Source of the DNA: a virus
DNA length: 32,187 nt
Reading direction: 5' to 3' (one strand)
IMG/VR virus record: IMGVR_UViG_3300008111_000162
Coordinates: 1 to 32,187 of that record
In this document: positions 7,091 through 31,663 of the stretch, in pieces
Layout: each line of letters begins with the position of its first letter
Numbering within the stretch: position 1 is the first letter of the stretch
Program-made: the position numbers and the translations under genes
The notes under the pieces: generated by a model
What the model was told of the DNA's origin: nothing
What the model saw: only the letters and a program-made list of their open reading frames with translations
Database searches by the model: none

Positions 7091-8023
7091 TTAGCTTAAA
7101 TTAGGAAGCCTAATACTAGTAGATCTTTTGCTAGCTAGCTCTTTCTCTTTAGCGATCGTTTCCATGATCTCGTTGAAACGTTGTACAGCTCGATCAGTAC
7201 GATCTTGAGCTCCACTATTCTCCCAACTAGTAACCGAGTCAATAAAGTCCTCGAACTGTTTGGTAGTCACTTGAACGTTTCTAGACTTGTCGTTATGATC
7301 CAATATAGTAAGATCATATTTGTAGCCGACCTTCTTGTTAACCGTGAACTCATGAACGAACATGTAGTCGTATTTAGATCGACCTGTCTGAAGCTTAAGC
7401 TCACCAGGCTTGTCTTGAAGTTCACGATCATTAGACGAGTCGTCACTACTATCAACCCATTCAATCGACTTATAGCTCTTGAGCTTGAGTGAAAAACCAG
7501 GCTTCATGTAAGACTCTTTTTGATCGTCTATCATTTCATACTTGAGAGCGTGTATGCTACTTTGAAGTGAATTAACAGGCTCTTGTAAGGCTCTAAGCTT
7601 TTTCTGATAATCTTTGTACTTTACCGTCCATTCATTTATGAATAGATCTTTGATAGTATCGTGGTTCTGACATACGCGACCGATTGTAATACCGTACTCG
7701 ATATCATTAGGATCGGAGTAGGTGTTACCACTAGACCAATTGAATTCAAATTCAGGAGCCTCTTTTTCACGCCAATAGTTTCTAATATTGAATTGGATGC
7801 GGTTAGCCCAACGGTCTTTTTGTGTATGCATAGTAAGACTGTCACTGCCGATCTCGGCTTTGATAAGGCTAAAACTAATGTTTTGGTGGAACCACTCTAG
7901 GATTGAATCATTAAGATCCTGTACTTGAGGATTGAACACTTCTTGAGTGTACGTAGTAACCTCTGTTTCCTTCACTGACAATTGCGCTTCTAGCGCTTCC
8001 AACATAACTTGTTTGTTATTCAT
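7091..8023 (-). CDS. Unknown coiled-coil protein, 310 aa
   Basis: The open frame extends to 8065 but the ATG at 8023-8021 (MNNKQVMLEALEAQLSVKET) follows the recurrent leader AAAAATAAAAGTT and lies downstream of the promoter block at 8051-8083, so it is the start; the 14 extra codons would be the leader read as protein. There is an N-terminal coiled coil, a central WREKEAPEFEFNWSSGNTYS region, a second coiled coil (YKDYQKKLRALQEPVNSLQS) and a long C-terminal helix (RFNEIMETIAKEKELASK). It is the first gene of the operon that runs to lower coordinates. No family recognised. Confidence 0.87.
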   Translation of the reverse strand: MNNKQVMLEALEAQLSVKETEVTTYTQEVFNPQVQDLNDSILEWFHQNISFSLIKAEIGSDSLTMHTQKDRWANRIQFNIRNYWREKEAPEFEFNWSSGNTYSDPNDIEYGITIGRVCQNHDTIKDLFINEWTVKYKDYQKKLRALQEPVNSLQSSIHALKYEMIDDQKESYMKPGFSLKLKSYKSIEWVDSSDDSSNDRELQDKPGELKLQTGRSKYDYMFVHEFTVNKKVGYKYDLTILDHNDKSRNVQVTTKQFEDFIDSVTSWENSGAQDRTDRAVQRFNEIMETIAKEKELASKRSTSIRLPNLS

Positions 8024-8050: not shown

Positions 8051-8083
8051 GTAAATATACAACAATTATTTGAGCCGGTAAAA
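8051..8083 (-). promoter_or_regulatory. Promoter-like block P-8.0 (TTTTA-N19-TATATTTAC)
   Basis: TTTTA at 8083-8079 and TATATTTAC at 8059-8051 on the minus strand, spaced by 19 bp. The boxes, spacing and flanking AAATATTTTA match the block at 12537-12569 exactly. A transcript would start about 20 nt before the ATG at 8023. Confidence 0.78.
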
Positions 8084-8112
8084 TATTTAGTGAACTATTT
8101 TAAAAATTGTCG

Positions 8113-8205
8113 ATTGAGAATCAATCAGTTATGCAAGTTCTTGATAGTCAATATGTTATAAGTGATTGGTTATCAATAGGTTAACCTAACTCATTGATTA
8201 TCAAT
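8113..8205. promoter_or_regulatory. Operator-like array: four 13-bp palindromes upstream of P-8.0
   Basis: Copies of ATTGA-NNN-TCAAT or one-mismatch variants lie at 8113-8125, 8140-8152 (C/G change at one end), 8165-8177 (one mismatch) and 8193-8205. The last overlaps the stop codon of the gene at 8191. A separate 12-bp palindrome TAGGTTAACCTA sits at 8177-8188. The positions and sequence next to the promoter (TCGATTGAnAATCAATC, then AGTTATGCAAGT) are shared with the array at 12599-12662. Repeated palindromes just upstream of a promoter suggest a dimeric regulator. Confidence 0.75.
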
Positions 8206-8622
8206 CCCGTACTTCTCCATGAGTTTATCTATTAACTCTTGATCTAGCTTATTGAACGTCTTTTGCCCTTGTATCTTCTTAACGTAGTCAATGTGTTTGT
8301 TTATAGTGATCAGCTTCAAAGCGTACTGCTTGTGAAGTGATCCTTTAACTATATATTTCAGAATAGTTTTCTGTAGCTCGGCTAATGCTTGTGTATTTTC
8401 TCTAATCAACTCTGATAGTCTATCTCTTTCTTCTACTAACAGTATCATCATTTGCTCTTGGAGTTTATCGACCTTCTCTTCTAGCTGATCGTTCTTCTTA
8501 ACTAGTCTTTGATATTGCATCCAAGCAAAATAGCCAAGAACAAATGCAACGAGTCCTAATACTCCGTATTGTAACAAATATTCTTTAGTGCTAGTAGTTG
8601 CAACGGCTTGAAGTAAATACAT
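8191..8622 (-). CDS. Single-span membrane protein with coiled coil, 143 aa
   Basis: Residues 18-36 (YGVLGLVAFVLGYFAWMQY) form one membrane helix, followed by a long coiled coil (KKNDQLEEKVDKLQEQMMIL ... RENTQALAELQKTI) and a basic C-terminal domain. The layout, a short N-terminal tail, one span and a charged coiled coil, is that of BhlA/UviB-type holin-like proteins, but this one is twice as long, so the assignment is tentative. It is the last gene of its operon; its stop lies inside the first operator palindrome. Confidence 0.85.
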   Translation of the reverse strand: MYLLQAVATTSTKEYLLQYGVLGLVAFVLGYFAWMQYQRLVKKNDQLEEKVDKLQEQMMILLVEERDRLSELIRENTQALAELQKTILKYIVKGSLHKQYALKLITINKHIDYVKKIQGQKTFNKLDQELIDKLMEKYGIDNQ

Positions 8623-8631
8623 TTCCGATCT

Positions 8632-8847
8632 CTAGTTTAGTTGACTGAATTTTTGGTACAACATATATTCCCAGAACTTTGCATATTCGTAGAGGTTATC
8701 ACGTTTCTCGTCAATTATCTCTCTTTCAATCATGTCAACCATAACTTCCACCCAAGCATATCTAGGAATAACATGTAAATATGGGTGAACTTCATTTGGT
8801 ATACCTGACCCGTCTGCGATGTCGTCTAACACGTCATAATATAACAT
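8632..8847 (-). CDS. Unknown acidic protein, 71 aa
   Basis: MLYYDVLDDIADGSGIPNEV start, tryptophan/aromatic-rich centre (YLHVIPRYAWVEVMVDMIE) and a helical end (FWEYMLYQKFSQLN). No recognised motif. Lies between a metallopeptidase-like gene and the membrane-coil gene in the same direction. Confidence 0.8.
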   Translation of the reverse strand: MLYYDVLDDIADGSGIPNEVHPYLHVIPRYAWVEVMVDMIEREIIDEKRDNLYEYAKFWEYMLYQKFSQLN

Positions 8848-8876
8848 AACAATAAATATTAGTTTTACTTTAAGGA

Positions 8877-9254
8877 TTAGTTACCGAACAGTTCTTTGAC
8901 ACATTTTTTGGCATCACGCTTCTCAATCTTATAGGCTTCTATCTCCATCGGGTGTTTGTTATCCGGTAGATACAGGCTCAAGATTTGGTAATGCCTCATG
9001 TTCTGCTTGTAATGGGTATACTCGTGTATGATACTACAAGCCAGGTCATACAAGGTATGATGCTTAGTCTTGTCTATGAATATAGTCGATTCTATATCAT
9101 CATAGAAAGCCATGCAACCTTCGGTATAGTAGTCCCCATTCTTGAACTCTATCTCAGGAAGTTCTCTGTTATATTTAGACTTGCCGTACTTCTCAATACA
9201 CCAGTCAAATATTTTTAGAGCATGTCGTTTAGTCAGCTTTAGTTGTTTGTCCAT
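8877..9254 (-). CDS. HExxH zinc metallopeptidase-like protein, 125 aa
   Basis: Residues 77-81 HEYTH on a helix (LACSIIHEYTHYKQNMRHY) are the two His ligands and catalytic Glu of a gluzincin/SprT-like site, and E104 or E106 in HPMEIEAYKIEKRDAK is a good third ligand. The size is that of a minimal, domain-only peptidase. It may process a phage or host protein or be a structural relic. A second, unrelated-looking HExxH protein is encoded immediately upstream, 2 nt away. Confidence 0.85.
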   Translation of the reverse strand: MDKQLKLTKRHALKIFDWCIEKYGKSKYNRELPEIEFKNGDYYTEGCMAFYDDIESTIFIDKTKHHTLYDLACSIIHEYTHYKQNMRHYQILSLYLPDNKHPMEIEAYKIEKRDAKKCVKELFGN

Positions 9255-9256
9255 AA

Positions 9257-9850
9257 CTATATTTGCTCCTCTATAAAGACCTGTTCGATCTTCTTAGGAA
9301 GCTTGTTGTAGTTCATTCTAAAATGAGCCGGCATTTGTTTGATCAGTCTCTTATTGTTATAAGGGCTATTGTCTGGGCTACACCACTTTCTGGTAGCTAG
9401 CATGCGGTTATAAAAATGCACGTAACAATTTGCCTTCTTAATATACTGATCAATGTCAATGTCTAGACCGAACTTCTTTATGATCTTAACGGCCCTCTTC
9501 TCGTTGTCTAGTTCTAGGTCTCTAGACACTGCTAGATGCTTCTTAATATCTGGCACATCTTCACCCATCAACCACTCATCCACTTTAGGGATCGATACAT
9601 CAGCCTTTTTCCATAAGTCTATCTGATCTTTCCACTGAGTGACATGGCCAAATTCATGTGCCAATATCTCTAGTGAGTCTGGCCTGTTCATGGAACAGAC
9701 TAGCTCCATATCATGATCGTCAAAGTAACCTGAACACTTCAGTTTACCTGGGAGTCTAACGTACTTCGTACGTCGAAGATCACATTTGATCCCATACTTC
9801 TTACACTCATCTTTTACGTACTTGATGAATTCTTTTGCTTTCTTATTCAT
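9257..9850 (-). CDS. HExxH zinc metallopeptidase-like protein, 197 aa
   Basis: Residues 65-69 HEFGH (SLEILAHEFGHVTQWKDQ) form a zincin motif with the usual hydrophobic residues before it. A downstream helix LELDNEKRAVKIIKKFGL (112-129) offers E113 or E117 as third ligand. The C-terminal third (YNRMLATRKWCSPDNSPYN ...) is basic and phage-specific. Substrate unknown. Coupled to the next HExxH gene; the two may act in series or be divergent duplicates. Confidence 0.86.
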   Translation of the reverse strand: MNKKAKEFIKYVKDECKKYGIKCDLRRTKYVRLPGKLKCSGYFDDHDMELVCSMNRPDSLEILAHEFGHVTQWKDQIDLWKKADVSIPKVDEWLMGEDVPDIKKHLAVSRDLELDNEKRAVKIIKKFGLDIDIDQYIKKANCYVHFYNRMLATRKWCSPDNSPYNNKRLIKQMPAHFRMNYNKLPKKIEQVFIEEQI

Positions 9851-9868
9851 AGAATGTCTTTTTAAAGG

Positions 9869-10135
9869 TCAAAGAATCCTATGATAAATATTGCTCTTGG
9901 ATCTGCTCCACGTGTTTACAGGCTCGTTTATTTCCACTAAATTTGAAGGCATGGCAATTACATGACCAATCCTCATCGTACAACCTAACCTTGTAAGAAC
10001 GGCCACCAGAACCATCCGTATGTCGGCCTCGGTCGTTCCACTTGGAACATCGATTCTTCTACCATCTACTGGCACGTAAGTACCTTTCTCGTCTTGAGTA
10101 GGATACGGGTATTGAAAGCTGTGGATTATTATCAT
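9869..10135 (-). CDS. SWIM zinc-finger protein gene interrupted by a frameshift
   Basis: The ATG at 10135-10133 overlaps the upstream stop as ATGA, and the frame reads MIIIHSFQYPYPTQDEKGTY then VPVDGRRIDVPSG. From about there the zero frame becomes unconvincing, while the -1 frame (10058-9879) encodes a complete SWIM domain. So the native product was probably the N-terminal part joined to the SWIM part, about 90 residues in total. Whether this is a true mutation, a sequencing error or a programmed shift cannot be told; no classic slippery heptamer is visible. SWIM domains bind DNA or proteins through CxC...CxH zinc. Confidence 0.65.
   Translation of the reverse strand: MIIIHSFQYPYPTQDEKGTYVPVDGRRIDVPSGTTEADIRMVLVAVLTRLGCTMRIGHVIAMPSNLVEINEPVNTWSRSKSNIYHRIL
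9879..10058 (-). other. SWIM zinc-finger coding segment in the -1 frame (59 codons, no start codon)
   Basis: Between a TAG at 10061-10059 and a TAG at 9881-9879 the frame reads KNRCSKWNDRGRHTDGSGGR, then SYKVRLYDEDWSCNCHAFKF and SGNKRACKHVEQIQEQYLS. C33-N-C35 and C47-K-H49 give CxC-x11-CxH, the SWIM signature. There is no ATG, GTG or TTG at the beginning, so it must be entered from the frame at 10135. Confidence 0.8.
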
Positions 10136-10344
10136 AGGGGCTTAAATTTAAACAATTCCCAGACCCTGGAAAAATCAAACCCATTAGTTCTAGGTTTTAG
10201 TTTTCCAAAGTCATAGTCACTATGAAGATTGTGTTTTTGAGGTCCTACACTTCGGCAAGCAGATCCTACTTCAAACATATTCATCCACTCTTGTTGATCC
10301 ATTTTCTCAGGATAAACCGTACTCTTAATTTTAATTTTACTCAT
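10132..10344 (-). CDS. Unknown protein, 70 aa
   Basis: MSKIKIKSTVYPEKMDQQEW start; ends WELFKFKPL. Contains KHNLHSDYDFGKLKPRTNGF, reminiscent of loops in small DNA- or nucleotide-binding proteins but not assignable. Leader TAAATAAAAGTAT before the ATG; stop overlaps the SWIM gene by ATGA. Confidence 0.78.
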   Translation of the reverse strand: MSKIKIKSTVYPEKMDQQEWMNMFEVGSACRSVGPQKHNLHSDYDFGKLKPRTNGFDFSRVWELFKFKPL

Positions 10345-10350
10345 ATACTT

Positions 10351-11052
10351 TTATTTAGTGTAACCAAATTGTTTTGAATCATCAATTTCACAATAAGAAT
10401 ATTCTACTTTAACTACCTTAGTTAACTCCTTTTGCTTGATAGTACCAGTCTTACGATCTTCAATCATAACTGTACCTATACCTTCATAAGGATCAAGATC
10501 AACTGAATTGTAGTACTCGTTGGCTTGTTCAAACGTATCAAACAAACGAATCTGTCTGTCTTTGTCTGTATAACCATCTAGCAACTCTGCTTCAATCTCC
10601 ATGTTAGCTGGATAACCAAACTCATTGTTATCAACAGTAAAGTAAGGGCTAACTGTCACAAAGAACTTGTTAGGATCTTTACCATCACCTACGATCTCTG
10701 TAGCTAACTGATCAATTTGTGCTTCGGTCAATTCAAGTGGACTATTATCTCTAGATGACAACATAGCTTCACAGATTTGTCTAGTAGCTTCATCAGTAGT
10801 TGCTTTATCAAATCCACCTATGTGCCATTCTACTTCTTCATCTAGACGGAGCACTCGATATTCTTTGTAGTCGTATACAGTGAACACTTCACCTGACTCG
10901 AGTTCCATGTACCACTCGAAGTTAATTTTGCCCTCACCAGTATTTGGCTCATAATCAGGCTCACCTAATACATGGATTAACTGATCTACGGTTGCAATTA
11001 CTGTACTGTTGTGGAAGCTTGTTCCATATGCATGCTTGTTTATCTTTTTCAT
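10351..11052 (-). CDS. Conserved phage protein, 233 aa (TSFHxxTVxxTVDQL family)
   Basis: Residues 9-60 (YGTSFHNSTVIATVDQLIHV, LGEPDYEPNTGEGKINFEWY, ESGEVFTVYDYKEYR) match a domain I have repeatedly seen in phage proteins of unknown role, in which a GTSFH start and an FTxYDxKEYR motif are constant. A HIGG motif at 77-80 fits the same domain. The remaining ~130 residues (LELTEAQIDQLATEIVGDGK ...) are a second, acidic domain that is not part of the usual family. Function unknown. Confidence 0.87.
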   Translation of the reverse strand: MKKINKHAYGTSFHNSTVIATVDQLIHVLGEPDYEPNTGEGKINFEWYMELESGEVFTVYDYKEYRVLRLDEEVEWHIGGFDKATTDEATRQICEAMLSSRDNSPLELTEAQIDQLATEIVGDGKDPNKFFVTVSPYFTVDNNEFGYPANMEIEAELLDGYTDKDRQIRLFDTFEQANEYYNSVDLDPYEGIGTVMIEDRKTGTIKQKELTKVVKVEYSYCEIDDSKQFGYTK

Positions 11053-11069
11053 AACTTTTATTTTTTAGT

Positions 11070-11300
11070 TTATGCTTCTTCTCTTGTAAAATAATTCCAC
11101 ACTTGGTGATCTTCACAAGCAAAGTTGTTTGATCTTAAAATACCTTTAATGTCTAGTATAGTATGAAATGGAACATCAGACACAAAGATATTTTTACTTA
11201 GTTCATTTTCTAGTACTTCAACACTAAGAGGAAATGATTGTCTATGTTTCTCAATAGCCTGTTTAAGCTCAGGCTTGGCTCTTTCTAACAACGTTTTCAT
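11070..11300 (-). CDS. Unknown protein, 76 aa
   Basis: MKTLLERAKPELKQAIEKHR start, then SFPLSVEVLENELSKNIFVS and a WNYFTREEA end. Helical, no motif. Preceded by the leader TTAAAATAAAAGTTAT and followed by a 17-nt spacer with the same AAAAATAAAAGTT sequence before the next gene. Confidence 0.82.
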   Translation of the reverse strand: MKTLLERAKPELKQAIEKHRQSFPLSVEVLENELSKNIFVSDVPFHTILDIKGILRSNNFACEDHQVWNYFTREEA

Positions 11301-11307
11301 ATAACTT

Positions 11308-11475
11308 TTATTTTAACTGTTTTTGTAATTCTTTGATCGGATCTTGCTTCGAGATACGTTTTATGTATGAAGCAACCCTATGTCTTTCATTAAGTGATCT
11401 CATTAGTTGATCACGTTCTAAGGTCTCTTTCAACCACTGCTCGTTAAGAGTCTTTTGTTTTTTATCTTTATTCAT
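11308..11475 (-). CDS. Small basic helical protein, 55 aa
   Basis: A longer frame exists to 11502, but its first nine codons lie within the coding end of the upstream gene; I choose ATG 11475-11473, overlapping that gene's TAA as ATGAATAA. The product MNKDKKQKTLNEQWLKETLE, then RDQLMRSLNERHRVASYIKR, is a basic, fully helical peptide. Function unknown. Confidence 0.75.
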   Translation of the reverse strand: MNKDKKQKTLNEQWLKETLERDQLMRSLNERHRVASYIKRISKQDPIKELQKQLK

Positions 11476-11734
11476 AATCATTATTTGTATCATAACAACC
11501 AACCATACGTTCTAACTCAGCATCAATCCGAATTTGATGAGGCTGCCATCTAGCCCAACGTTCGGCATTAGTTTCTGTATCTTCATACCAACGACTATCG
11601 TCGTTCCAGCCTTTTGGAAACATCGGCTTAAGATCTTCATCGGTTACTTCAGGATTGACCTGTTTAATAGTAACGTCATACTGATTTTTGTCTAGGCTAA
11701 TTAGCCATTCTAAACTTTCTTTTACACTTTTCAT
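11468..11734 (-). CDS. Unknown acidic protein, 88 aa
   Basis: The open frame could start at a TTG (11743), but the ATG at 11734-11732 (MKSVKESLEWLISLDKNQYD) is the better start. Tryptophan-rich middle (FPKGWNDDSRWYEDTETNAE, RWARWQPHQIRID) and an acidic tail. No known domain. Confidence 0.8.
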   Translation of the reverse strand: MKSVKESLEWLISLDKNQYDVTIKQVNPEVTDEDLKPMFPKGWNDDSRWYEDTETNAERWARWQPHQIRIDAELERMVGCYDTNNDYE

Positions 11735-11752
11735 AACACACAATTTTTATAA

Positions 11753-12064
11753 TTAATAATTAAATACATCTCTCTCGTCCCAATCTTGTTCTAGTAGCAT
11801 GTCAATTTGCTCATCGATCACGCTGTCTGGAATATCACTGTCGACAAATACCTCTCGCTCAATTGCTTTCAATAACGAATCAATGTCCGTATTTTTGAAG
11901 TCACGAGTCTTGACCTGCATTCTCTGACCTAGGTACTCTATTACTATGATACCGCGACCACCTTCTCCGTATGTATACTCTCGTCCTAATGGACTTACGA
12001 ATGTCTTACCAACTCTAGCACTATTCCAATCTCTTTTCTTACCAATTTCTTTTCTTTGCATCAT
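11753..12064 (-). CDS. Unknown protein, 103 aa
   Basis: The frame reaches 12091, but its first residues (NNIKKIKV) are just the recurrent AAAAAAATAAAAGTC leader read as protein. The ATG at 12064-12062 gives MMQRKEIGKKRDWNSARVGK. Residues 20-50 (VGKTFVSPLGREYTYGEGGR, GIIVIEYLGQRMQV) look like an SH3-like beta barrel, the rest an acidic helical tail. Function unknown. Confidence 0.82.
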   Translation of the reverse strand: MMQRKEIGKKRDWNSARVGKTFVSPLGREYTYGEGGRGIIVIEYLGQRMQVKTRDFKNTDIDSLLKAIEREVFVDSDIPDSVIDEQIDMLLEQDWDERDVFNY

Positions 12065-12083
12065 GACTTTTATTTTTTTAATA

Positions 12084-12278
12084 TTATTCAAACATACAAT
12101 TCTCTTGTTCCCACTTACCGTCTACAAGTCTTTCGATCGTGTAGTCGCCGTTGTACTTACGATTGTCTGGGTGGGTTAACCACACCTTAGTTTCGTCTTT
12201 CCAGATCTTGAGTTCGTCTCCGTCCCAAGCTTGCTCGATCGTATCGAGGCTTTCTAATTGTCTTTTTGTGTATGTCAT
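12084..12278 (-). CDS. Unknown protein, 64 aa
   Basis: The true start is ATG 12278-12276 (MTYTKRQLESLDTIEQAWDG); the longer frame to 12335 overlaps the upstream gene and again translates the AAAATAAAAGTT leader (LIKIKV). Contains WKDETKVWLTHPDNRKYNGD and ends ENCMFE. No family recognised. Confidence 0.8.
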   Translation of the reverse strand: MTYTKRQLESLDTIEQAWDGDELKIWKDETKVWLTHPDNRKYNGDYTIERLVDGKWEQENCMFE

Positions 12279-12306
12279 AACTTTTATTTTTATTAACTTA
12301 AAGAAC

Positions 12307-12513
12307 TTAATACCACACCACCTGAAAGTTCTCACAGAACTTCATGATCTCCTTAGACTCGTCTTCCCAGTCCAATTCAAAAAGATCTATACCTAACGTG
12401 ACCTTGATCCAATCGTGGACGTCACAAATGTTTAATACAGGGAATTCATTCTGTAGCTCAGCTACAACTTTGTTTCTACCTAAGATCTCGTACATCGTGT
12501 AATTTACTTCCAT
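12307..12513 (-). CDS. Unknown acidic protein, 68 aa; first gene of its operon
   Basis: MEVNYTMYEILGRNKVVAEL start and an acidic, aromatic end (FELDWEDESKEIMKFCENFQ). It lies just downstream of the promoter block at 12537-12569, so it is probably among the first proteins made from that transcript. No motif. Confidence 0.8.
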   Translation of the reverse strand: MEVNYTMYEILGRNKVVAELQNEFPVLNICDVHDWIKVTLGIDLFELDWEDESKEIMKFCENFQVVWY

Positions 12514-12536
12514 AGTCTTTATTGATTTGTTACATA

Positions 12537-12569
12537 GTAAATATACTACAAACTTTTGACACCATAAAA
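12537..12569 (-). promoter_or_regulatory. Promoter-like block P-12.5 (TTTTA-N19-TATATTTAC)
   Basis: TTTTA at 12569-12565 and TATATTTAC at 12545-12537 on the minus strand with a 19-bp spacer. It matches the block at 8051-8083 in both boxes and the flanking AAATATTTTA, while the spacer differs, as expected for a true promoter rather than a recent duplicate. The ATG at 12513 is 23 nt away. Confidence 0.78.
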
Positions 12570-12598
12570 TATTTTGGCATCTTTTTTGAAAATTCTCG

Positions 12599-12662
12599 AT
12601 TGAAAATCAATCAGTTATGCAAGTGATTGAAAGTCAATCAGTTACACATATTGATAATCAAT
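12599..12662. promoter_or_regulatory. Operator-like array: three 13-bp palindromes upstream of P-12.5
   Basis: ATTGA-NNN-TCAAT occurs perfectly at 12599-12611, 12626-12638 and 12650-12662, with spacers of 14 and 11 bp. The first palindrome, together with the following CAGTTATGCAAGT, is shared with the array near 8113-8139. The remaining intergenic bases to 12699 are AT-rich with no gene. Confidence 0.78.
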
Positions 12663-12699
12663 TAGTTATATATATAGGAAATAAAAATATATAAGTGGT

Positions 12700-13200
12700 T
12701 CACTTCTTGAAGTCTATCAAGTCCGATAGACCGTCATCGTCCACGGGCGTGTCCGTAGGTTCTTTAAATAATACGTCCCCACGGTCGTCTAGTCCAAGCT
12801 TCTTTAAGTGTTCAAAATAAAAGTCATCGAGTTGGAATAACTCTTGTGCATCGTCTTTTATATCTGGTGCATCTAGAGGCATTGCTTCTAAACGCTGTAG
12901 CATTTTATTTGAGAATGGATCTTCTATGAACAAGAAGTAACAGTTATAGCAAAGCCATCTTAAGTTCTCAATTCTCCAGTCACTACGCTTGCCGTTAACA
13001 AAGTTAAGTAGTAATGGTGCTTTCATGTCAGTTAATCTCTTCTCACTGAATTTACACGTGGCGCATTGATACCCCAATCTACCATCTTTCATTAGCATCT
13101 CTTTCAACCTTATAATCTTCTTGGTATTGATAGGTTGATTCTCTACTAACATTTCATCTAGATTCTTTTTCCACTGTCCACCTGCCCAGTTTTTAGGCAT
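12700..13200 (-). CDS. Zinc-binding, HNH-like protein, 166 aa, likely without nuclease activity
   Basis: The frame extends to 13317, but the extra N-terminus is the shadow of the overlapping HTH gene; the ATG at 13200 (MPKNWAGGQWKKNLDEMLVE) overlaps that gene's stop by 8 nt, and ATG 13209 is an alternative. C46-x2-C49 (CATC) and C84-x2-C87 (CYNC) form a zinc site, and N79 in IENLRWLCYNC fits the Asn of HNH enzymes. The His pair is replaced by LLNF and the last His by Tyr/Phe, so catalysis is unlikely. Related phage proteins, as I recall, carry an HTH in front, here encoded separately. Confidence 0.8.
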   Translation of the reverse strand: MPKNWAGGQWKKNLDEMLVENQPINTKKIIRLKEMLMKDGRLGYQCATCKFSEKRLTDMKAPLLLNFVNGKRSDWRIENLRWLCYNCYFLFIEDPFSNKMLQRLEAMPLDAPDIKDDAQELFQLDDFYFEHLKKLGLDDRGDVLFKEPTDTPVDDDGLSDLIDFKK

Positions 13201-13387
13201 TCTTTGCATACTTCTTGTATGTAACGTCTGTGATGCCAAGCCATCTAGCAGCTTCTTTATTGCTTCTAGTATTGGCCATAGCTTCTCTAATTCTTTCTGG
13301 AGATAGTTGTAGTCCACGGTTCCACCAATGTTCTGGTCGAACTCCTCTTGCCATATTTTCTTTGGTAAAGTTATATGTTTTGCTCAT
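13193..13387 (-). CDS. Helix-turn-helix DNA-binding protein, 64 aa
   Basis: MSKTYNFTKENMARGVRPEH, then WWNRGLQLSPERIREAMANT, then RSNKEAARWLGITDVTYKKY. The last block is a typical HTH (SNKEAARWLGITDVTYKKYA), suited to sequence-specific or non-specific DNA binding. The coding end overlaps the HNH-like gene by 8 nt and its start overlaps the upstream gene by 17 nt. It is probably the N-terminal half of a split two-domain protein. Confidence 0.83.
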   Translation of the reverse strand: MSKTYNFTKENMARGVRPEHWWNRGLQLSPERIREAMANTRSNKEAARWLGITDVTYKKYAKNA

Positions 13388-14488: not shown

Positions 14489-15772
14489 TTACTCTATAGT
14501 TAACAACGTCATGTCGAATGGTGGATTCTGAACCACAATTTGACCTGGAGCTAGACTAACCACGTTCTTTACGTCTATCTTGGCAGATCCTAGTTCATAC
14601 ACACCTGGCTCATAAGGTTCTACAATCGAGCTTATACGCGTCAGGTTCTGTAAGAATATATCTTGTTGTGGGTTAACACCACTAAAATTAGCCTCTACTT
14701 TAATGTTATATTCCTCAGGCTGTCCTACTTTGTAGATCGAATCAAAGTCCACTTGGTTATAAAACTGCTTTGCTGATTCCCAGTCTTCAACTGAGAATCC
14801 AAGGAGTTCATTAGCTGGATCGTGTTGATTGCTGAATATAGACGTGATTGCTTTCTTTTGCTCTTCTGTTTCTAACCATACTCTTGAGAAGAAAGGTTCT
14901 ATCTGTACTATAAACATTGGGTTTAGTTTACCAGCTTCAGATAGTACTAGATCCATGTCTAGTTTATTTAGTTTATCTTCACCATGATTAAAGTTACCCC
15001 ACTTTTGTAAGAACTTCCTGATCTCTATACCGTCAGCGATCTTTTGTAGCTCTACTTTTCTTTGAGCTGCCTCATTAGACTTATCAAACCAATTCTTTCC
15101 TCTAGATGCTACGCAACTGAAATGGTATACGTTTGCCTTAAACGTTTGTTTGATCTTAACTCCTTTGTGAACAAGCCTTTGCAATAGATCAGAATCTTCT
15201 CTAGATCTTCTGAATCTGGTATCATAGCCTCCGATATCTAACCATACACTCTTATAGAAAGTAAATGGAGCAAAAAAGTACTCTAATGTCTTGGTCTTCT
15301 TTTCTAGTTCTGCAAAAGTTATAAAATCATTCCAATTGAATTCATTGGGATCTACACCAAAATCCTTAGTGATCGTAGTTTCTGATGGTCCATGTAAAGG
15401 AGGTTCTATTCTTGTAGCGCTCAATATACAATTAGGTTCTATCTCGTCTAAGATATTTTTATCATAGTACTTACTTATAACCATATCTGATTGTAAGTAA
15501 GAACAAATATCGTGCTTAGCAAGTTCAACCATTAGGTTGTTGTTTCTTGAATAGCCAACACACGGTTTAAGTTTATGTGTTATAATCTTAAGATCTTTGA
15601 AATACCTCTTCTGATCTTTTAAGAAGTCTACGGTACCTTCATTGTCTGAATCAACAAATACTATTATCTCATGATCTGGAGAATATAGGTTCTCTCTTAA
15701 AGACTTTAGTAATAACTTAACGTGGTCTAACGTATTTACTGATGTGTTAATTAAAAAGCTTATTTGTTTCAT
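14489..15772 (-). CDS. GT2 glycosyltransferase with extra C-terminal domain, 427 aa
   Basis: Residues 1-230 are a GT-A fold: hydrophobic first strand (QISFLINTSVN), FVDSDN (39-44) and LQSDMV (93-98, the DxD-like metal site region), GGYD (181-184) and RREDSD region with E192-D193. The enzyme would move a sugar from a nucleotide donor onto a growing glycan in the cytoplasm. The ~150 residue C-terminal region has no recognised fold and includes a beta-rich end (VKNVVSLAPGQIVVQNPPFD). Start overlaps the preceding SDR gene by ATGA. Last gene of the glycan island. Confidence 0.85.
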   Translation of the reverse strand: MKQISFLINTSVNTLDHVKLLLKSLRENLYSPDHEIIVFVDSDNEGTVDFLKDQKRYFKDLKIITHKLKPCVGYSRNNNLMVELAKHDICSYLQSDMVISKYYDKNILDEIEPNCILSATRIEPPLHGPSETTITKDFGVDPNEFNWNDFITFAELEKKTKTLEYFFAPFTFYKSVWLDIGGYDTRFRRSREDSDLLQRLVHKGVKIKQTFKANVYHFSCVASRGKNWFDKSNEAAQRKVELQKIADGIEIRKFLQKWGNFNHGEDKLNKLDMDLVLSEAGKLNPMFIVQIEPFFSRVWLETEEQKKAITSIFSNQHDPANELLGFSVEDWESAKQFYNQVDFDSIYKVGQPEEYNIKVEANFSGVNPQQDIFLQNLTRISSIVEPYEPGVYELGSAKIDVKNVVSLAPGQIVVQNPPFDMTLLTIE

Positions 15773-16536
15773 TTTAACTTATTATATACTTGTCTAATTC
15801 CTTCTTCTAGACCAATGTAATTAATTCCGATTGACTTATATTCACCGATGTAATTAGTGCCAAAATTATTACTAGCTGATATGGCTACTTTATAATCACT
15901 GAGATTGTTTATGATCATTGCAATATCAATAAGTCTTTTCTTATCTTCATAGACACAATCGTACGTTTTAGGTAGGCTATCGTTATTGATATAATAGTCA
16001 ACTACGCTGATTAAGTCTTGCATATAAAAGAAGTCCATTTGTTTGTATTCGTGTATCTGCATGTCTTCTTTGTCTATGTATCTTTGTATACAACTCTTGA
16101 TAAATCTAGTATTTAACTCATTCTCATCAAAAACAGCATATATTCTCAAATTATAGAAATTGTCTATTTCTTCTATAGATCTGGCTATTACTTTCTTACT
16201 TAGTCCGTATGGTTCGTCTGGCATGTAGATCTCTGCTCCTGAACCAAAATTAATTAGCTTATCGTATGACAATCTATTCTCTAACAAATTGTAGTACATA
16301 GACAAATTAATGTCCATGTCTTTATAGTTATCCTTTCTAAGTCTATGACCTCCTGATACTGCTGTATGAATGACAATGTCATAATGCTTGTCTCGCATGT
16401 AAATTCTTGTATCAATAGAATTAGAAAGATATAGAGTATCTCTGCCAAGACACGTTATGTTATATTTCCCAGAAAGTTCTCGATATAAACTCCTGGCAAT
16501 GTAACCGTTCTGTCCTGTTATAAGAATATTTTTCAT
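15769..16536 (-). CDS. Short NAD(P)-dependent sugar epimerase/dehydratase/reductase (SDR), 255 aa
   Basis: Starting at ATG 16536-16534, which overlaps the ThDP enzyme's stop as ATGA (a GTG nine bases upstream is less likely), the protein has GQNGYIA (8-14, Rossmann GxxGxxG), GSG (98-100) and YGLSK (110-114), the SDR Tyr-Lys pair. It is shorter than typical extended-SDR epimerases (~310 aa), which fits RmlD-like reductases or small 4-keto-sugar reductases. It probably finishes a nucleotide sugar begun by the neighbouring enzymes. Confidence 0.85.
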   Translation of the reverse strand: MKNILITGQNGYIARSLYRELSGKYNITCLGRDTLYLSNSIDTRIYMRDKHYDIVIHTAVSGGHRLRKDNYKDMDINLSMYYNLLENRLSYDKLINFGSGAEIYMPDEPYGLSKKVIARSIEEIDNFYNLRIYAVFDENELNTRFIKSCIQRYIDKEDMQIHEYKQMDFFYMQDLISVVDYYINNDSLPKTYDCVYEDKKRLIDIAMIINNLSDYKVAISASNNFGTNYIGEYKSIGINYIGLEEGIRQVYNKLK

Positions 16537-18266
16537 TCTATCCACTGTATGTTATTCAATTCGCCTGGTATAAATTTGCCATCTTCTCCTAGTTTTGCCA
16601 TTACTTTAGGTTCGTGAAATTCACTAGGATCTACAAAGACTTCAATTAATTGAGGACCTTCTGTTTTAAAACATTGATCAATCTTCTTTTGAAGACCTCT
16701 CTTACTTTTAATAGCAATATAAGGAATGTTGTATGCGTCTGCAATCTTTTTGTAACTAGGTAGTGTCAATCCACTAGAAGCATCTGATAAAGACAGTAAA
16801 CCTTTACAGAAAGTCTTCTGTGTTATTTTAATCGATACGTAGCCATCATTATTAATCACAAATATCTTAATAGGTAGTTTATTTTGTGAGACTACTTGAA
16901 GTTCATGCACATTCATGTGTAAGCTACCATCTCCTTCTAAACATACAACCTCTTTTCTATCATTAGCAAAACAAGCACCAATTGAAGCAGGAAGACCATA
17001 ACCCATCGGAGCTGTTGATTTGTTACTGAATAGTCTCTGACCCTTTTTCAATTTTATAACCTGCATTCCTACAATATTAGCAGATCCATCTGAAGTAATT
17101 ACAGGAAGGTCTGATCTCATGTTTGAGTTTAATGTTTCCATGAAAGCATACGCACTCAAAGGATCTTTTTGCCTGTGTCTCTTTAATACAGTAGGAGACG
17201 ACTTAACCTTCTTTTGGCAGTATTTTCTCCACTTATCTATATCTGCTATTTTAATTTCAGACTTGATAGCATTTAAAAATTCAGTTACATCAGACTGTAC
17301 TTTTATATCTGGATAAAGTGTGGGTTTGTCTAACTCTCCTTTGTCTATATCAACATATACTTTGAATGCATTCTTTGCAAACCCTTTAAAGTTATAACCA
17401 ATTTGTCTAACATATAAACGACTTCCTAAAGACAATACAAAGTCTGCTTGTTGAACTATATCATTGGCTGCTATTTGAGCATGTGTTCCAAATCTACCAC
17501 AGTAGTACTCATACTCATTAGATACTGAGTCGTTGCCATTAAAAGAAGTTATAACAGGTATCTGATATTCGGTAAGTATAGAGTCTAATAACTCAACTGC
17601 ATTAGACAGTCTAACACCGTGTCCAGCAATGATCAAAGGTTTTTTACTCTTTGACAGTTTGTCTACAATTGTTTTGATTGTATCTTCTGATAAGTCATTA
17701 CTATCTGCTTCAGGAACAAATCCTAGTAAGCCATTTGGATCAATAGTAGTTGATTGAACATCTAAAGGAACATCTACCCAAACAGGACCTTTTCTTCCAG
17801 TTGTAGCTTCATGATATGCTTTTTCTAAATAGTATCGTATCTTCTCAGGATCGTTAACTTGAACTGCATACTTGGTGAAGTTCTTTACTGTCTTTATCAC
17901 ATCAAACTCTTGATCTCCTAACTGTCTTAGATTGAGTCCTGTGTAATTAGTAGTTAGATCTTTATTTACATTCCCGCTTATAACCATAACAGGAACACTG
18001 TCTTGATACGAACACAACGTACCTGTCCATGCATTAGAACCACCTGGTCCTGAAGTAACTAAACAAACACCTAGATGCCCGTTTAATCTAGCATAACCTT
18101 CAGCAGATAAAGCACATGCTTGTTCATGGTGATTGACCACCATATTGAGATCAGTGTTTCTTGCAAAGGCATCATTTAAATGAATACAACCACCTCCTGG
18201 TATTGTAAACACATCTTTGACTCCTTTATTAGATATAAAACTAGCGATATAATCAGATACTCTCAT
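16533..18266 (-). CDS. ThDP-dependent acetolactate synthase-family enzyme, 577 aa
   Basis: Full-length three-domain fold: N-terminal Pyr domain with catalytic E48 (NHHEQACALSAEGYAR), middle dehydrogenase-like domain (180-340), and C-terminal PP domain with GDGS (445-448) ... NND (472-474), the ThDP/Mg motif. Start at ATG 18266 rather than the over-long frame to 18326. Acetolactate synthases are absent from phages as housekeeping genes, but relatives such as YerE attach a two-carbon unit from pyruvate to a keto-sugar to make branched sugars. With an SDR directly downstream and sugar genes upstream, that kind of sugar role is more likely than amino-acid synthesis. No small regulatory subunit gene is nearby. 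Confidence 0.88.
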   Translation of the reverse strand: MRVSDYIASFISNKGVKDVFTIPGGGCIHLNDAFARNTDLNMVVNHHEQACALSAEGYARLNGHLGVCLVTSGPGGSNAWTGTLCSYQDSVPVMVISGNVNKDLTTNYTGLNLRQLGDQEFDVIKTVKNFTKYAVQVNDPEKIRYYLEKAYHEATTGRKGPVWVDVPLDVQSTTIDPNGLLGFVPEADSNDLSEDTIKTIVDKLSKSKKPLIIAGHGVRLSNAVELLDSILTEYQIPVITSFNGNDSVSNEYEYYCGRFGTHAQIAANDIVQQADFVLSLGSRLYVRQIGYNFKGFAKNAFKVYVDIDKGELDKPTLYPDIKVQSDVTEFLNAIKSEIKIADIDKWRKYCQKKVKSSPTVLKRHRQKDPLSAYAFMETLNSNMRSDLPVITSDGSANIVGMQVIKLKKGQRLFSNKSTAPMGYGLPASIGACFANDRKEVVCLEGDGSLHMNVHELQVVSQNKLPIKIFVINNDGYVSIKITQKTFCKGLLSLSDASSGLTLPSYKKIADAYNIPYIAIKSKRGLQKKIDQCFKTEGPQLIEVFVDPSEFHEPKVMAKLGEDGKFIPGELNNIQWIE

Positions 18267-18645
18267 ACAAATTATTGAATTGATCCATTGCGGAATTCCA
18301 GTCTGTGAATCTAATAGCTTTGTCATCTATATAAACTAACGCTCTTGGTTTTTCAGAAGTGATCTCTTTAACATACTGACCTAGATCATGTTTGTCTAAC
18401 CACTCTCTTACGAGCTCTGCTCCTGTCTTACCGTTTATTAACGGTCTATCAGGTTTTGCTTTTGCAGTAAAGATAATGATATTGTACTTTTGTGCCAACT
18501 TCTTGATAGCTTCACTAGAACCTTCAATTATTGGTCCATAGATAGTTCCATCTCCGAACCCATCATAGTTGTCATGAATTACACCATCAAAATCTATGCA
18601 CACATTTTTACTTTCGTCTTGTTGAATTGTTTGTACGTATTCCAT
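18253..18645 (-). CDS. HAD-superfamily phosphatase, 130 aa
   Basis: D18-F-D20 (CIDFDGVIHD) is the nucleophile/acid pair, T60 (IIIFTAK) motif II, K99 motif III and IDD (106-108) motif IV, so the catalytic set is complete. It lacks a cap domain, as do phosphatases acting on larger substrates or on phosphosugars. Located between the aldolase and ThDP genes, it may dephosphorylate an intermediate of the same pathway. It overlaps the ThDP gene start by 14 nt. Confidence 0.88.
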   Translation of the reverse strand: MEYVQTIQQDESKNVCIDFDGVIHDNYDGFGDGTIYGPIIEGSSEAIKKLAQKYNIIIFTAKAKPDRPLINGKTGAELVREWLDKHDLGQYVKEITSEKPRALVYIDDKAIRFTDWNSAMDQFNNLYESI

Positions 18646-18646
18646 A

Positions 18647-19411
18647 TTAGCTTAATTTATTGATTCTGGATATATCTTGGTTATATAAACTATCATAATA
18701 GTCTCTCTTAGCTTTTAGATAGTTCAGTTCAAAGTTTAATGCTTCTTTGATCAATTGAGAGAATGAATAGTAATTTAATGCTTTAACACTAAACATAACA
18801 TTTCTAGTTTCAAACTTATCTAATAGTCCTTCTTCTATAAGTGTTGTAACAAATTTCTCTGAATTAACTGACATAGATCCTCCTAAAGTGCAACCCATTC
18901 CTTTCTTTCTTGCGAGTTTGAACACGTGTCTTGTCATATTAAATACCTCTTCTGAATCTACCGATCCATTGTACCTGTCTAATTCCATAGACTGAACTAG
19001 ATCGCCTCTCCCTACAGTGATACTAGACAACTTATTAAAATAAGCTGATGATGCTATTACTTCTAAATTGTCATAACATGTTTTAGATTCTACATTGATA
19101 GCCAGCTCTCCATTTTCTACTGTGTAGTATTTGTCACAACTTTGAATGAACTTCTCAAGAGCAAATTTAGACTCTAACATAGGAGCTACAATCTTTTGAA
19201 TCTGCATTTTATTAGCGTCCTTAATATCTCTGATAGCTTCACCGCCACTTACTTTAAGGATAAGAGGAATGTTGTTTCTGTCACAGAATGTTTTTAAGAA
19301 CAGTACTTCAACAAAGTCTGCTCCTTCATCTTCAAAAGACGTTTTGATCCCTACCAAGTTTTTGGTAGCTAGATCTAATATTGTCTGGTTGTTTAGTGAG
19401 TTTAATTTCAT
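18647..19411 (-). CDS. HpcH/HpaI (CitE-like) aldolase/lyase, 254 aa
   Basis: The start is ATG 19411 (MKLNSLNNQTILDLATKNLV), five bases after the dehydratase stop codon; a longer frame to 19471 overlaps that gene. It has KVSGGEAIRDI, IVAPMLESKFALEKF and ITVGRGDLVQSMEL, the pattern of the CitE/HpcH TIM-barrel family, which cleaves or forms C-C bonds with pyruvate or acyl-CoA partners using a divalent metal. It is short for the family (~290 aa). In a sugar island this suggests addition or removal of a small acid; the exact reaction is unknown. Confidence 0.82.
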   Translation of the reverse strand: MKLNSLNNQTILDLATKNLVGIKTSFEDEGADFVEVLFLKTFCDRNNIPLILKVSGGEAIRDIKDANKMQIQKIVAPMLESKFALEKFIQSCDKYYTVENGELAINVESKTCYDNLEVIASSAYFNKLSSITVGRGDLVQSMELDRYNGSVDSEEVFNMTRHVFKLARKKGMGCTLGGSMSVNSEKFVTTLIEEGLLDKFETRNVMFSVKALNYYSFSQLIKEALNFELNYLKAKRDYYDSLYNQDISRINKLS

Positions 19412-19415
19412 AGTA

Positions 19416-20372
19416 TTACCAAATAAAGTTTTTCTTGTAATAGTCAACAATTGCTGGGAGTTCTTTGTCAAAAATAGCTTTAGGTTCCCAACCTAACAAT
19501 CTAAGTTTAGAGTCATCTAAAGCATAGCGAACGTCTTGACCTTGTCTATGGTAAGAAAGATCTAGATAAGAATCAATATAATCAGATCCGTTGAATTCTT
19601 TTATAACTTTCTTTACAGTGTCGTAATTAGATTGCTCGAATCCTCCGGCTATGTTATAGATCTCATTTGTAACTCCTGATTCTATAATAGCTACAACTGC
19701 ACTAGCAGTGTCTGAGGCATGTAGCCAGTTACGAATAGGTGTACCATTATTGTGTAGAGGTATCTTCTTACCAAGGTGTAAGAACTTGCATGCTTTTGGT
19801 ATAAGCTTCTCTACGTATTGACCCATTCCATAATTGTTAGTAGGTCTTACAATAACATAAGGAAGATTGTAGGTTCTGGCCCAAGCCAATACTAACATAT
19901 CTGCAGCGGCTTTAGTTGCTGAGTATGGATTAGATGGCTTCAATAGATCTGTTTCTATGTGAGCGCCTGATTCAATATCGCCATAAACCTCATCGGTTGA
20001 GAAGTGAAGTAGTACTGGCTTCTTTGTTGATTCTTGTCTGTAGTTCTTGATCAACTCAAGAAGATTATGAACACCATCAATATTAGAATGGACAAACTCA
20101 TCTGAGCTAGCTATAGAATTTCCTACGTGTGTTTCTGCTGCTGTATTAATTACATAGTCACATTCATACAAAAACTCAATGTCGTTGATATCTTGGCGCT
20201 CAAATGCGAATCTGTCACCATATTTTTCAGCAAATTCAAATATAAGATCTTCATTAGATGCATAGGTACATTTGTCTATCCCTCTAACATACCAACCTTT
20301 TTCTAAACAAGCTCTGGTTACGTAAGATCCTATGAAGCCGAAGCAACCTGTTACATATACTACCTTTGTCAT
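19416..20372 (-). CDS. dTDP-glucose 4,6-dehydratase-type enzyme (RmlB/RfbB-like), 318 aa
   Basis: Rossmann motif TGCFGFIGS (8-16), the diagnostic STDEVYGD (125-132; T126, D127, E128) and YSATK (150-154), then RPTNNYG. These residues carry out oxidation, water elimination and reduction of an NDP-hexose to its 4-keto-6-deoxy form. The TDE set is typical of the dTDP-glucose enzyme; the N-terminal NDP part is shorter than in RmlB (~350 aa), so the nucleotide is not certain. The product is a common entry point for 6-deoxy and 3,6-dideoxy sugars. Overlap with the aldolase frame is an artefact of the long reading frame. Confidence 0.9.
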   Translation of the reverse strand: MTKVVYVTGCFGFIGSYVTRACLEKGWYVRGIDKCTYASNEDLIFEFAEKYGDRFAFERQDINDIEFLYECDYVINTAAETHVGNSIASSDEFVHSNIDGVHNLLELIKNYRQESTKKPVLLHFSTDEVYGDIESGAHIETDLLKPSNPYSATKAAADMLVLAWARTYNLPYVIVRPTNNYGMGQYVEKLIPKACKFLHLGKKIPLHNNGTPIRNWLHASDTASAVVAIIESGVTNEIYNIAGGFEQSNYDTVKKVIKEFNGSDYIDSYLDLSYHRQGQDVRYALDDSKLRLLGWEPKAIFDKELPAIVDYYKKNFIW

Positions 20373-20374
20373 AA

Positions 20375-21022
20375 TTAAATTGTTTTTTCAATTACTATTG
20401 TTTCACAATATACGTGTATACTGTAAATTTCACCTTTATGCCTATCAAGATCTTCTATCTTACTTAATAAGAACAGGTCAAAATCACCTCTGTGGTTTTT
20501 AAAATCAGTGCCAGTATTATAGTTCATACCAGGCCAATCTTTAGCATATTTATCAAACTCTGGTTGGAATTTATCTCCATACGTGCAATGTGTATCTTCA
20601 ATAACATAATAGCCTCCTGGTTTTACTTGAGGGAAATATAAATTGAAACTTCTAAAAGTAAGGCTATTAATGTGAGAAGCATCGTCAATTATAATATCAA
20701 ATCCTTGTGAGTAGTCTGATTGAATTTGCTTAGACAATTCTAAACTATCTTGTGAACCAATATAAACTTTAACTCTGTCTTGCTCATGAACTTTTCTAGC
20801 AGGATCTATGTCCACACCGACTACATTTCCTTTTTCAAAATAGTCTTTCCACACTCTAAGAGAACTACCGTTTAATATACCTAACTCCATGATATTAACT
20901 GGTTCATTTCTTAAGTGATCAAAGTGGCGCTCATAAATGTCTAAAAAGTTTCTGTGATTAAACGTATGAATTCCTACTTTATCTGTACTATGTCTTAGTC
21001 CTAGATCTCTTAACTGTTCCAT
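20375..21022 (-). CDS. Class I SAM-dependent methyltransferase, probably sugar O-methyltransferase, 215 aa
   Basis: Motif I MELGILNGSS (45-54), the acidic end of strand 2 VDIDP (70-74) and IIDDASH (111-117) identify a Rossmann methyltransferase of the CmcI/macrocin-O-methyltransferase type, where D113/D114/H117 bind metal and substrate. Neighbours are sugar enzymes, so it likely methylates a hydroxyl of a glycan or nucleotide sugar. It follows the three-module glycosyltransferase with 5 nt between. Confidence 0.87.
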   Translation of the reverse strand: MEQLRDLGLRHSTDKVGIHTFNHRNFLDIYERHFDHLRNEPVNIMELGILNGSSLRVWKDYFEKGNVVGVDIDPARKVHEQDRVKVYIGSQDSLELSKQIQSDYSQGFDIIIDDASHINSLTFRSFNLYFPQVKPGGYYVIEDTHCTYGDKFQPEFDKYAKDWPGMNYNTGTDFKNHRGDFDLFLLSKIEDLDRHKGEIYSIHVYCETIVIEKTI

Positions 21023-21027
21023 ATTAT

Positions 21028-23415: not shown

Positions 23416-23422
23416 TTTTTTA

Positions 23423-24058
23423 TTACGCTTTTAGTTTGAACAAATAGTCATGGCCTAATCTTCCATTTAACCCGTCTTTTTTATCTATTTCGTAATTGTA
23501 AGAAGCCATCCATTCTAATATAAGATTTTCAATAGGATTTCCTGGGTTTATCTCTATAGTCCAATGTAAAATCTTTCTGTTGTTTTTAGGTAGAAAATCT
23601 TGTAAGACATATATTTCAGATCCTTCAATATCAAGAGATATATAATGAATCGTTTCTGGAGCATTGTGATTATTCAATAGAGTATTTAGAGATATAGTAG
23701 TTCTCTCTGTTAAAGATTTAACCGGTAGGTTAGCGGATATTGTACCTTCTACTGAAGATAGTAGGTGTTCATAGTCAGTCAGCATTTCATACTCTGTAAA
23801 GTTTATCTTGGACCCATCATCTAATATTACATTACTATCACAAATGCAACCTCTTGATTCTTTCAGCTTTTTAAAACTAGTGCTATTCGGTTCTATACAT
23901 ATACCAGTCCAATCAAATTCTTTTTCTAAGACAAAAGTATTAGATAAAAAAACACCGTCTCCTGCAGCTAAGTCTACAAAATAACCTCCTTTAAAATTAG
24001 GAAGCATTTCCTCTATAATCCATTTATCTTGACCGTATTGACTTTTATAAGAACTCAT
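23423..24058 (-). CDS. FkbM-family methyltransferase, 211 aa
   Basis: SQYGQD (6-11), FVDLAAGDG (27-35, SAM loop), IEPN (55-58) and DIEGSE (143-148) are the standard FkbM signature. FkbM enzymes methylate hydroxyls, often on sugars or polyketides. Located between GDP-mannose 3,5-epimerase and the three-module GT, a methylated sugar on the glycan is likely. Complete for the family. Confidence 0.92.
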   Translation of the reverse strand: MSSYKSQYGQDKWIIEEMLPNFKGGYFVDLAAGDGVFLSNTFVLEKEFDWTGICIEPNSTSFKKLKESRGCICDSNVILDDGSKINFTEYEMLTDYEHLLSSVEGTISANLPVKSLTERTTISLNTLLNNHNAPETIHYISLDIEGSEIYVLQDFLPKNNRKILHWTIEINPGNPIENLILEWMASYNYEIDKKDGLNGRLGHDYLFKLKA

Positions 24059-24069
24059 ATTACTATCTA

Positions 24070-25089: not shown

Positions 25090-25090
25090 G

Positions 25091-28453: not shown

Positions 28454-28664
28454 TAAGTTGCTGTTTAGTTGTATATGATATTGTAGTACCTTCAGGATAT
28501 TCTAAGGATGTAGAAGTACTGCCAAAAGTAAAAATAGGGTCACAATTATCTTCAACTTTATTTAACTCTTCTACAATAGTCTCCCACTGTTTTGGAGTAA
28601 TGTTGTATTCATTGGCAGCTTTAGAAAAGCCTTTTAACCAAATTATAAACTCTTTCGATGTCAT
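28446..28664 (-). CDS. Conserved small phage protein, 72 aa
   Basis: MTSKEFIIWLKGFSKAANEY start, then NITPKQWETIVEELNKV. This MxSKEFIIWLKGF / TPKQW pattern is a recurring short phage protein of unknown role. It overlaps the zinc-ribbon gene by 8 nt and the GT4 stop by ATGA. Confidence 0.87.
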   Translation of the reverse strand: MTSKEFIIWLKGFSKAANEYNITPKQWETIVEELNKVEDNCDPIFTFGSTSTSLEYPEGTTISYTTKQQLND

Positions 28665-29971: not shown

Positions 29972-29972
29972 A

Positions 29973-31641: not shown

Positions 31642-31663
31642 ATTCCTTTCTTAATAAATATAC

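Follow-up and report, generated by a model that had tools for sequence, protein, structure and literature searches.

The 32,187-bp window analysed here is the whole of the IMG/VR record IMGVR_UViG_3300008111_000162 and is a fragment of a large phage. Nearly all of its genes lie on the minus strand, and their start codons are preceded by A-rich leaders. As listed in Table 1, two intergenic regions of the window each hold a row (array) of palindromes followed, in the direction of transcription, by a promoter. An earlier reading of the letters alone (the sequence-only reading) had placed ATTGA-NNN-TCAAT palindromes in these regions. Indeed, ATTGA-N3-TCAAT was found exactly at 8113, 8193, 12599, 12626, and 12650 and with one mismatch at 8140 and 8165, and a search for further copies with up to one mismatch gave none besides these seven in the window. 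The number is mildly above chance (3.4 in shuffled sequences), and all seven fall in the two intergenic clusters. The promoter that had been proposed for both arrays, TTTTA-N19-TATATTTAC, was also found exactly twice, on the minus strand, and the window has no further TATATTTAC. As for the repeat unit, the core palindrome stood, while its supposed extent of 13 nucleotides had to be replaced by a unit of 25 bp, TAA-N3-ATTGA-N3-TCAAT-N3-TTA. Read in the gene direction, the repeat in the window is TAACT-N-ATTGA-N3-TCAAT-N-AGTTA, arranged head to tail with 24–28 bp from start to start.

The centre of the promoter-proximal palindrome is 64 bp from the centre of the -7 box in both regions. In a repeat search, the two regions gave a gap-free alignment of 108 bp with 81% identity. 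Thus, both regions are copies of one module, which consists of the array, an A/T-tract spacer, and the promoter, and the idea that they differ apart from the shared elements did not hold, the whole module being homologous. That a conserved array-promoter module has been duplicated in this phage is certain.

Table 1. Positions of the two array-promoter modules and of the adjoining genes in the window
Feature	Position	Strand	Remark
Array 1, promoter-proximal 25-bp palindrome	8107–8131	-	Distal half TAACTGATTGATT matches the IHF consensus perfectly
Array 1, second palindrome	8134–8158	-	TAACATATTGACTATCAAGAACTTG
Array 1, third palindrome	8159–8183	-	TAACCTATTGATAACCAATCACTTA
Array 1, distal palindrome	8187–8211	-	Overlaps the stop codon of the upstream gene (8191–8622)
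Spacer between array 1 and promoter, A/T-tract	8084–8106	-	
Promoter 1, Bacteroidota -33/-7 type	8051–8083	-	TTTTA 8079–8083, N19, TATATTTAC 8051–8059
First gene downstream of array 1	7091–8023	-	310 amino acids; without Pfam or PHROGs match
Gene upstream of array 1	8191–8622	-	143 amino acids; without confident family
Array 2, promoter-proximal 25-bp palindrome	12593–12617	-	
Array 2, middle palindrome	12620–12644	-	
Array 2, distal palindrome	12644–12668	-	
Spacer between array 2 and promoter, A/T-tract	12570–12592	-	
Promoter 2	12537–12569	-	TTTTA 12565–12569, N19, TATATTTAC 12537–12545
First gene downstream of array 2	12307–12513	-	68 amino acids, unknown
Gene upstream of array 2	12700–13209	-	HNH-endonuclease-like (PHROG 10822)
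Duplicated module, copy 1	8051–8158	-	81% identical to 12537–12644
Duplicated module, copy 2	12537–12644	-	

The closest named relative of the window is Flavobacterium phage vB_FspM_immuto (Immutovirus, NC_055915; hereafter immuto), and a glycosyltransferase-HNH gene block is common to both. A 162-kb relative (G001) has a T4-type terminase with 56% identity to the immuto terminase, and many G001 genes are also present in the contigs G020, G021, G026, G027, and others. When named phages were searched at the nucleotide level with the window and the array as queries, no matching record was returned, and an Rfam search of the window gave no match.

Distribution and promoter geometry of the palindromes

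Is the module confined to this window? Since pattern scans with a short core include chance hits, whole contigs were compared instead; the relatives were located via neighbouring proteins, and several of the contigs are fragments. The module was found at the same or similar places in the relatives L125, L126/L130, L128, L132, L137, L140, and L207. In an alignment of 14 sequences, the conserved part comprises three units together with the spacer and the -7 box, and the sequences agree far less outside it. In the same alignment, orthologous modules are 81–92% identical, while the two copies in the window are 77% identical to each other. Thus, the duplication predates these phages, and the figures show no sign of concerted evolution of the two modules. 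The module pair is an old duplication which has been retained by selection. In this respect the sequence-only reading, which had proposed a duplicated multi-site control module kept by selection upstream of promoters, is borne out by the duplication, the geometry, and the conservation across phages. Its restriction to two operons was too narrow, as modules of the same kind are found at several places per contig in phages of a broad group.

In a second group of relatives (L135, L136, L139, L143, and L144), one or two 25-bp palindromes directly follow the stop codon of the upstream gene, and their distance from the promoter can reach about 150 bp. The same five loci have a second conserved and partly palindromic element resembling CTTTGAAGATTCTTCAATAAATCCTAG between the palindrome and the promoter. 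Similar arrays, mostly intergenic, precede a subset of the promoters in eight further large contigs. The sites are not equally frequent in coding DNA; in 12 phage contigs of the broad group, the 25-bp sites are concentrated in the non-coding DNA, which makes up about 10% (8–13%) of the sequence. The non-coding share is 24 of 28 sites in G027, 16/19 in G023, 13/14 in G029, and 10/10 in G024, with a weaker bias in G026 (6 of 12 sites). Immuto has two site matches, below the chance level of four, and none of them is intergenic. The array is borne by 12 of the 27 promoters in G027, 3 of the 21 in G021, and 0 of the 34 in immuto. Immuto resembles the window in having a related -7 box, the N19 spacing, and the glycosyltransferase and HNH block; it differs in its -33 box, GTTGC, and in that none of its 34 promoter-like starts has a palindrome. 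As a side observation, Microcystis phage Mel-JY01 (PP395634.1) has a terminase with 54% identity to the terminase of this group of phages, a shared glycosyltransferase (43%), and a single near-perfect palindrome at 98198; its stated cyanobacterial host may deserve a check.

The consensus of 117 intergenic units from the 12 phage contigs is TAACT-N-ATTGAT-W-ATCAAT-N-AGTTA, with A or T at the centre in 96%. Across the arrays, the spacing from unit to unit is 24–29 bp in most cases and also 36–40 or 49–52 bp; these classes could be due to helical phasing or to lost units. A translational-stop role, considered for the TAA and TGA present in several frames of the palindrome, was dropped because the N6 varies freely.

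Promoters of Bacteroidota are of a -33/-7 type, in which a TTTG-like box is followed, after about 19 bp, by a TAnnTTTG-like box. Most of the palindrome clusters stand upstream, in the direction of transcription, of a promoter of this type (TTTGG, TTTTA, or GTTGC, then N19, then TATCTTTAC or TATATTTAC). The distance from the centre of the proximal palindrome to the centre of the -7 box prefers 45, 49, 54–55, 58–60, 64–65, and 70–71 bp. The preferred values advance by half a helical turn (R 0.56 at 5.25 bp); the p-value should not be taken at face value since many of the modules are related. The distance from the array to the promoter is more constrained than that to the stop codon, and the arrays end about 50 bp upstream of the -7 box, leaving the promoter itself uncovered. 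Besides the two promoters of Table 1, the window has a third promoter-like sequence, TAGTATATTTA (31642–31668), which is similar to 12525–12551, has no palindromes, and precedes a ribbon-helix-helix gene (31423–31641).

Resemblance to the IHF consensus and candidate binding proteins

Does the palindrome act as DNA or as RNA? Across the 117 units, the covariation of the arm pairs did not exceed that of one-side shuffles: pairs 4–22, 6–20, and 7–19 are formed in 43, 42, and 74% of the units against 44, 40, and 78% after shuffling. The lack of covariation indicates that the palindrome is a DNA site and not a conserved RNA or terminator hairpin. Judging from the sequences, the units are very probably sites for a sequence-specific DNA-binding protein.

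The consensus of integration host factor (IHF) is TAAnnnnTTGATW or, equivalently, WATCAAnnnnTTR (PMC10380432). It was found that the palindrome consists of these two sequences overlapping each other, with the central W common to both. A perfect 13-bp IHF consensus occurs at least once in 94% of the clustered units (89 of 95). In about 78% of the clustered units the half facing away from the promoter is intact, and in 39% the promoter-proximal half is; among the proximal units, the distal half is intact in 80%. A T-run on the promoter side, which often replaces the last TTA, is present in 50% of the proximal units versus 10% of the upstream units, and the T-tract of the proximal units lies across from their better conserved half. 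In strong IHF sites, an A-tract is present on the side away from the consensus, and IHF wraps 35 bp of DNA (PMC8421141). The arrays are like promoter-upstream IHF sites in the 13-bp consensus and in the position and, for about half of the proximal units, perhaps in the A/T tract facing away from the better conserved half. They are unlike IHF sites in that the consensus is doubled into a palindrome, that the palindromes follow one another at 25-bp intervals, and that they belong to phages of Bacteroidota-type genomes. The two kinks of the IHF-H' structure lie 9 bp from each other, and the dyad between them presumably coincides with the W of the palindrome.

Which protein might occupy these sites? 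A search for PF00216 (HU/IHF) in the window and in 13 other phage records gave no match. PF00216 genes are present in genomes of Flavobacterium, Mucilaginibacter, and several Microscillaceae. Bacteroidota HU-family proteins are candidate binders, and one paralogue, found in Flavobacterium and Mucilaginibacter, shares the RGFGSF motif, which aligns with IRGFGSF of IHF-beta. The Arg position of this motif is occupied by S in IHF-alpha and by V in the Flavobacterium HU paralogue. I take this Arg to be the equivalent of beta-Arg46, the reader of the TTR element. A homodimer of RGFGSF subunits would read TTR on both sides and would prefer a symmetric site. Another family, HU-HIG (PF18291), is present in two of three host-type genomes and gives no link to the palindrome. 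I know of no sequence-specific palindromic site for Bacteroidota HU-family proteins, and none of the papers covered in a literature search on PeSL cassettes (see below), Immutovirus promoters, Bacteroides host factor, and Bacteroidota IHF was a direct precedent.

The palindrome had been regarded as phage-specific, and this view had to be given up, as the same 25-bp palindrome occurs in Bacteroidota chromosomes. In a genome scan, it was overwhelmingly in Bacteroidota among the matches listed. The 6.8-Mb metagenome-assembled genome (MAG) Prado074 of Microscillaceae (G012, JALONJ01...; e.g., L445–L457) has 860 copies of ATTGATNATCAAT and none of a control sequence. It has 641 exact 25-mers of the form TAAnnnATTGATWATCAATnnnTTA, which are mostly intergenic in the sampled contigs. 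The flanks of the palindrome, taken without bias from the bacterial genome, gave TAA-N3-ATTGAT-W-ATCAAT-N3-TTA, where TAA is present at 95% (88–96% per position). Obtained independently of the phage units, this sequence likewise joins the two forms of the IHF consensus. Other Microscillaceae genomes have 38, 22, 14, 12, 7, 7, 3 copies and so on, and 147 other Bacteroidota genomes have five copies in total. These chromosomal copies suggest that a cellular protein reads the motif. The bacterial loci have single sites or wider spacing, the array-type 25-bp spacing being not seen, and the neighbours of single bacterial sites revealed no consistent gene from which a regulon might be deduced.

Two further settings of the bacterial palindromes were observed. 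In L402 (1543, 3646, and 5581) and L362 (7487; Bacteroidia bin 39), the palindrome lies a few base pairs upstream of a sigma-54-like promoter, TTGGCACG-N4-TTGG, before repeated secreted-protein genes and within an outer inverted repeat, GTGCCAAAAT...ATATTGGCAC. In L369, L428, L356, and L390, from four genera of Flavobacteriia, it lies about 25–30 bp before a conserved CTGTCCG stretch, which is possibly a mobile-element end or an RNA gene.

Based on these sequence comparisons, each array may be regarded as a set of three or four putative protein-binding sites on double-stranded DNA, which precede a host-type phage promoter and each of which is a palindromic version of the IHF consensus. The occupant would most likely be a DNA-bending protein of the HU/IHF family, supplied by the host bacterium and acting as a homodimer. 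Bending or wrapping of the DNA just upstream of RNA polymerase might then govern how active a subset of the promoters is in the early or small-gene region. Since the row of sites comes to an end about 50 bp before the -7 box and leaves the promoter uncovered, activation or an architectural role seems more likely than repression. That the arrays are tandem sites for a host-supplied HU/IHF-family bender acting on promoters is a plausible reading, for and against which I find the case evenly balanced. A wider proposal is more tentative: Bacteroidota may own a homodimeric, sequence-specific IHF-type protein reading TAAnnnATTGATWATCAATnnnTTA, whose site would have been built by a large group of T4-like phages into upstream arrays for a subset of their promoters and spread hundreds of times over the chromosomes of at least one bacterial family.

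Several points weigh against an HU/IHF-family occupant. The 25-bp repeat is tighter than the 35-bp wrap of IHF, so that neighbouring sites could not all be fully wrapped simultaneously. The half-site trade-off expected of an asymmetric IHF-like reader is weak (Fisher p 0.03–0.07). The match to IHF was noticed only after the motif had been seen and thus has less weight than a predicted match, and many of the promoter distances, being taken from related modules, are not independent of one another. The RGFGSF paralogue of Bacteroidota scores below the IHF equivalog cut-offs, and true IHF has been reported only from Proteobacteria (PMC5683647). In Prado074, which may be incomplete as a MAG, no RGFGSF paralogue was detectable and just two weak PF00216 matches were obtained. 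Furthermore, many genes are shared among the phages, so they may have a common phage-encoded regulator.

To my knowledge, little is known about promoter control in T4-like phages of Bacteroidota-type hosts, and the arrays are a concrete cis-element that is conserved and for which there is a testable candidate protein. If the binder is indeed of the HU/IHF family, IHF-type sequence recognition would exist in a phylum thought to lack IHF. It would explain the evolution of a symmetric site, since both subunits of the homodimer would carry the IHF-beta-type Arg, and it would explain the scatter of the palindrome in Microscillaceae chromosomes. It would also supply a defined promoter element for work on Bacteroidota.

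Rival readings of the arrays

The arrays might instead be operators of a phage-encoded repressor or activator outside the HU/IHF family that times early or middle genes, the resemblance to IHF sites being accidental. Tandem palindromic operators at promoters are a classic layout and are seen here, the array-bearing phages form one broad group with many genes in common, and the 25-bp spacing is peculiar to the phage arrays when compared with the bacterial loci. Against this, a sequence-only screen of the G001 proteins present in at least four of the five large array-bearing contigs, some of which are incomplete, revealed no outstanding DNA-binding protein that is absent from immuto. The sequence-only reading had pointed to the ribbon-helix-helix protein at 31423 and to the helix-turn-helix (HTH) protein at 13193, an HTH-HNH protein, as regulators. 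Both are poor candidates and are disfavoured as binders, as they have homologues in immuto (55 and 122 bits, respectively, with the G001 orthologues), which has no intergenic site. The abundance of the same 25-bp motif in the chromosomes of one bacterial family also argues against a phage-encoded reader. I consider such a regulator somewhat unlikely.

In another explanation, each array would terminate the upstream gene by a row of hairpins and would be coupled to the promoter that follows, as in the promoter-stem-loop (PeSL) cassettes which Arbiol in 2010 and Comeau in 2014 are said to have described in T4-type phages (see the citations in PMC4503421). The arrays and the PeSL cassettes are both repeated intergenic promoter cassettes of T4-like phages (the relative G001 has a T4-type terminase homologue), they precede small unknown genes, and homologous modules precede different genes. 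The arrays follow the end of a gene and precede the next promoter, in some cases overlapping the stop codon, and a T-tract follows some of the proximal units. The transcripts of the whole arrays fold better than shuffled sequences (z -3.1 and -3.6), which is expected of any row of palindromes. When the units of array 2 were folded singly, the middle unit gave z -5.1, although the proximal (z -0.9) and distal (z -0.6) units were no more stable than shuffles. A terminator scan predicted no terminator at either array, the pairs 4–22 and 6–20 are formed in just 42–43% of the units without covariation, and the promoter distance is constrained more than the stop-codon distance. Unlike the stem-loop of PeSL cassettes, the palindrome thus behaves as a DNA site, and tandem terminators are quite improbable as a general explanation. 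A GC-richer unit with a T-run, which resembles a real terminator, was found in G020 (L235) and in L321, and local use of a few such units as terminators is possible.

It is most improbable that the arrays are replication-origin iterons, partition sites, or packaging sites; tandem repeats of about 25 bp near A/T-rich DNA do resemble iterons, but a contig has several arrays, which with few exceptions lie on the promoter side of genes at constrained distances, no GC-skew switch is present in the window, and no recognised initiator gene adjoins the arrays.

Other features of the window

A long run of sugar-nucleotide and glycosyltransferase-type genes occupies 14489–31415 and resembles the immuto block. 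Named by eye, its contents include epimerases, an aminotransferase, a thiamine pyrophosphate (TPP)-enzyme-like protein, and a methyltransferase-like protein. At the start of the record, a 74-bp stretch (1–74) is 100% identical to 470–543, which may reflect a recent gene duplication or an assembly artefact. In a region of short genes (639–772), two 65-bp repeats lie in tandem with 98% identity.

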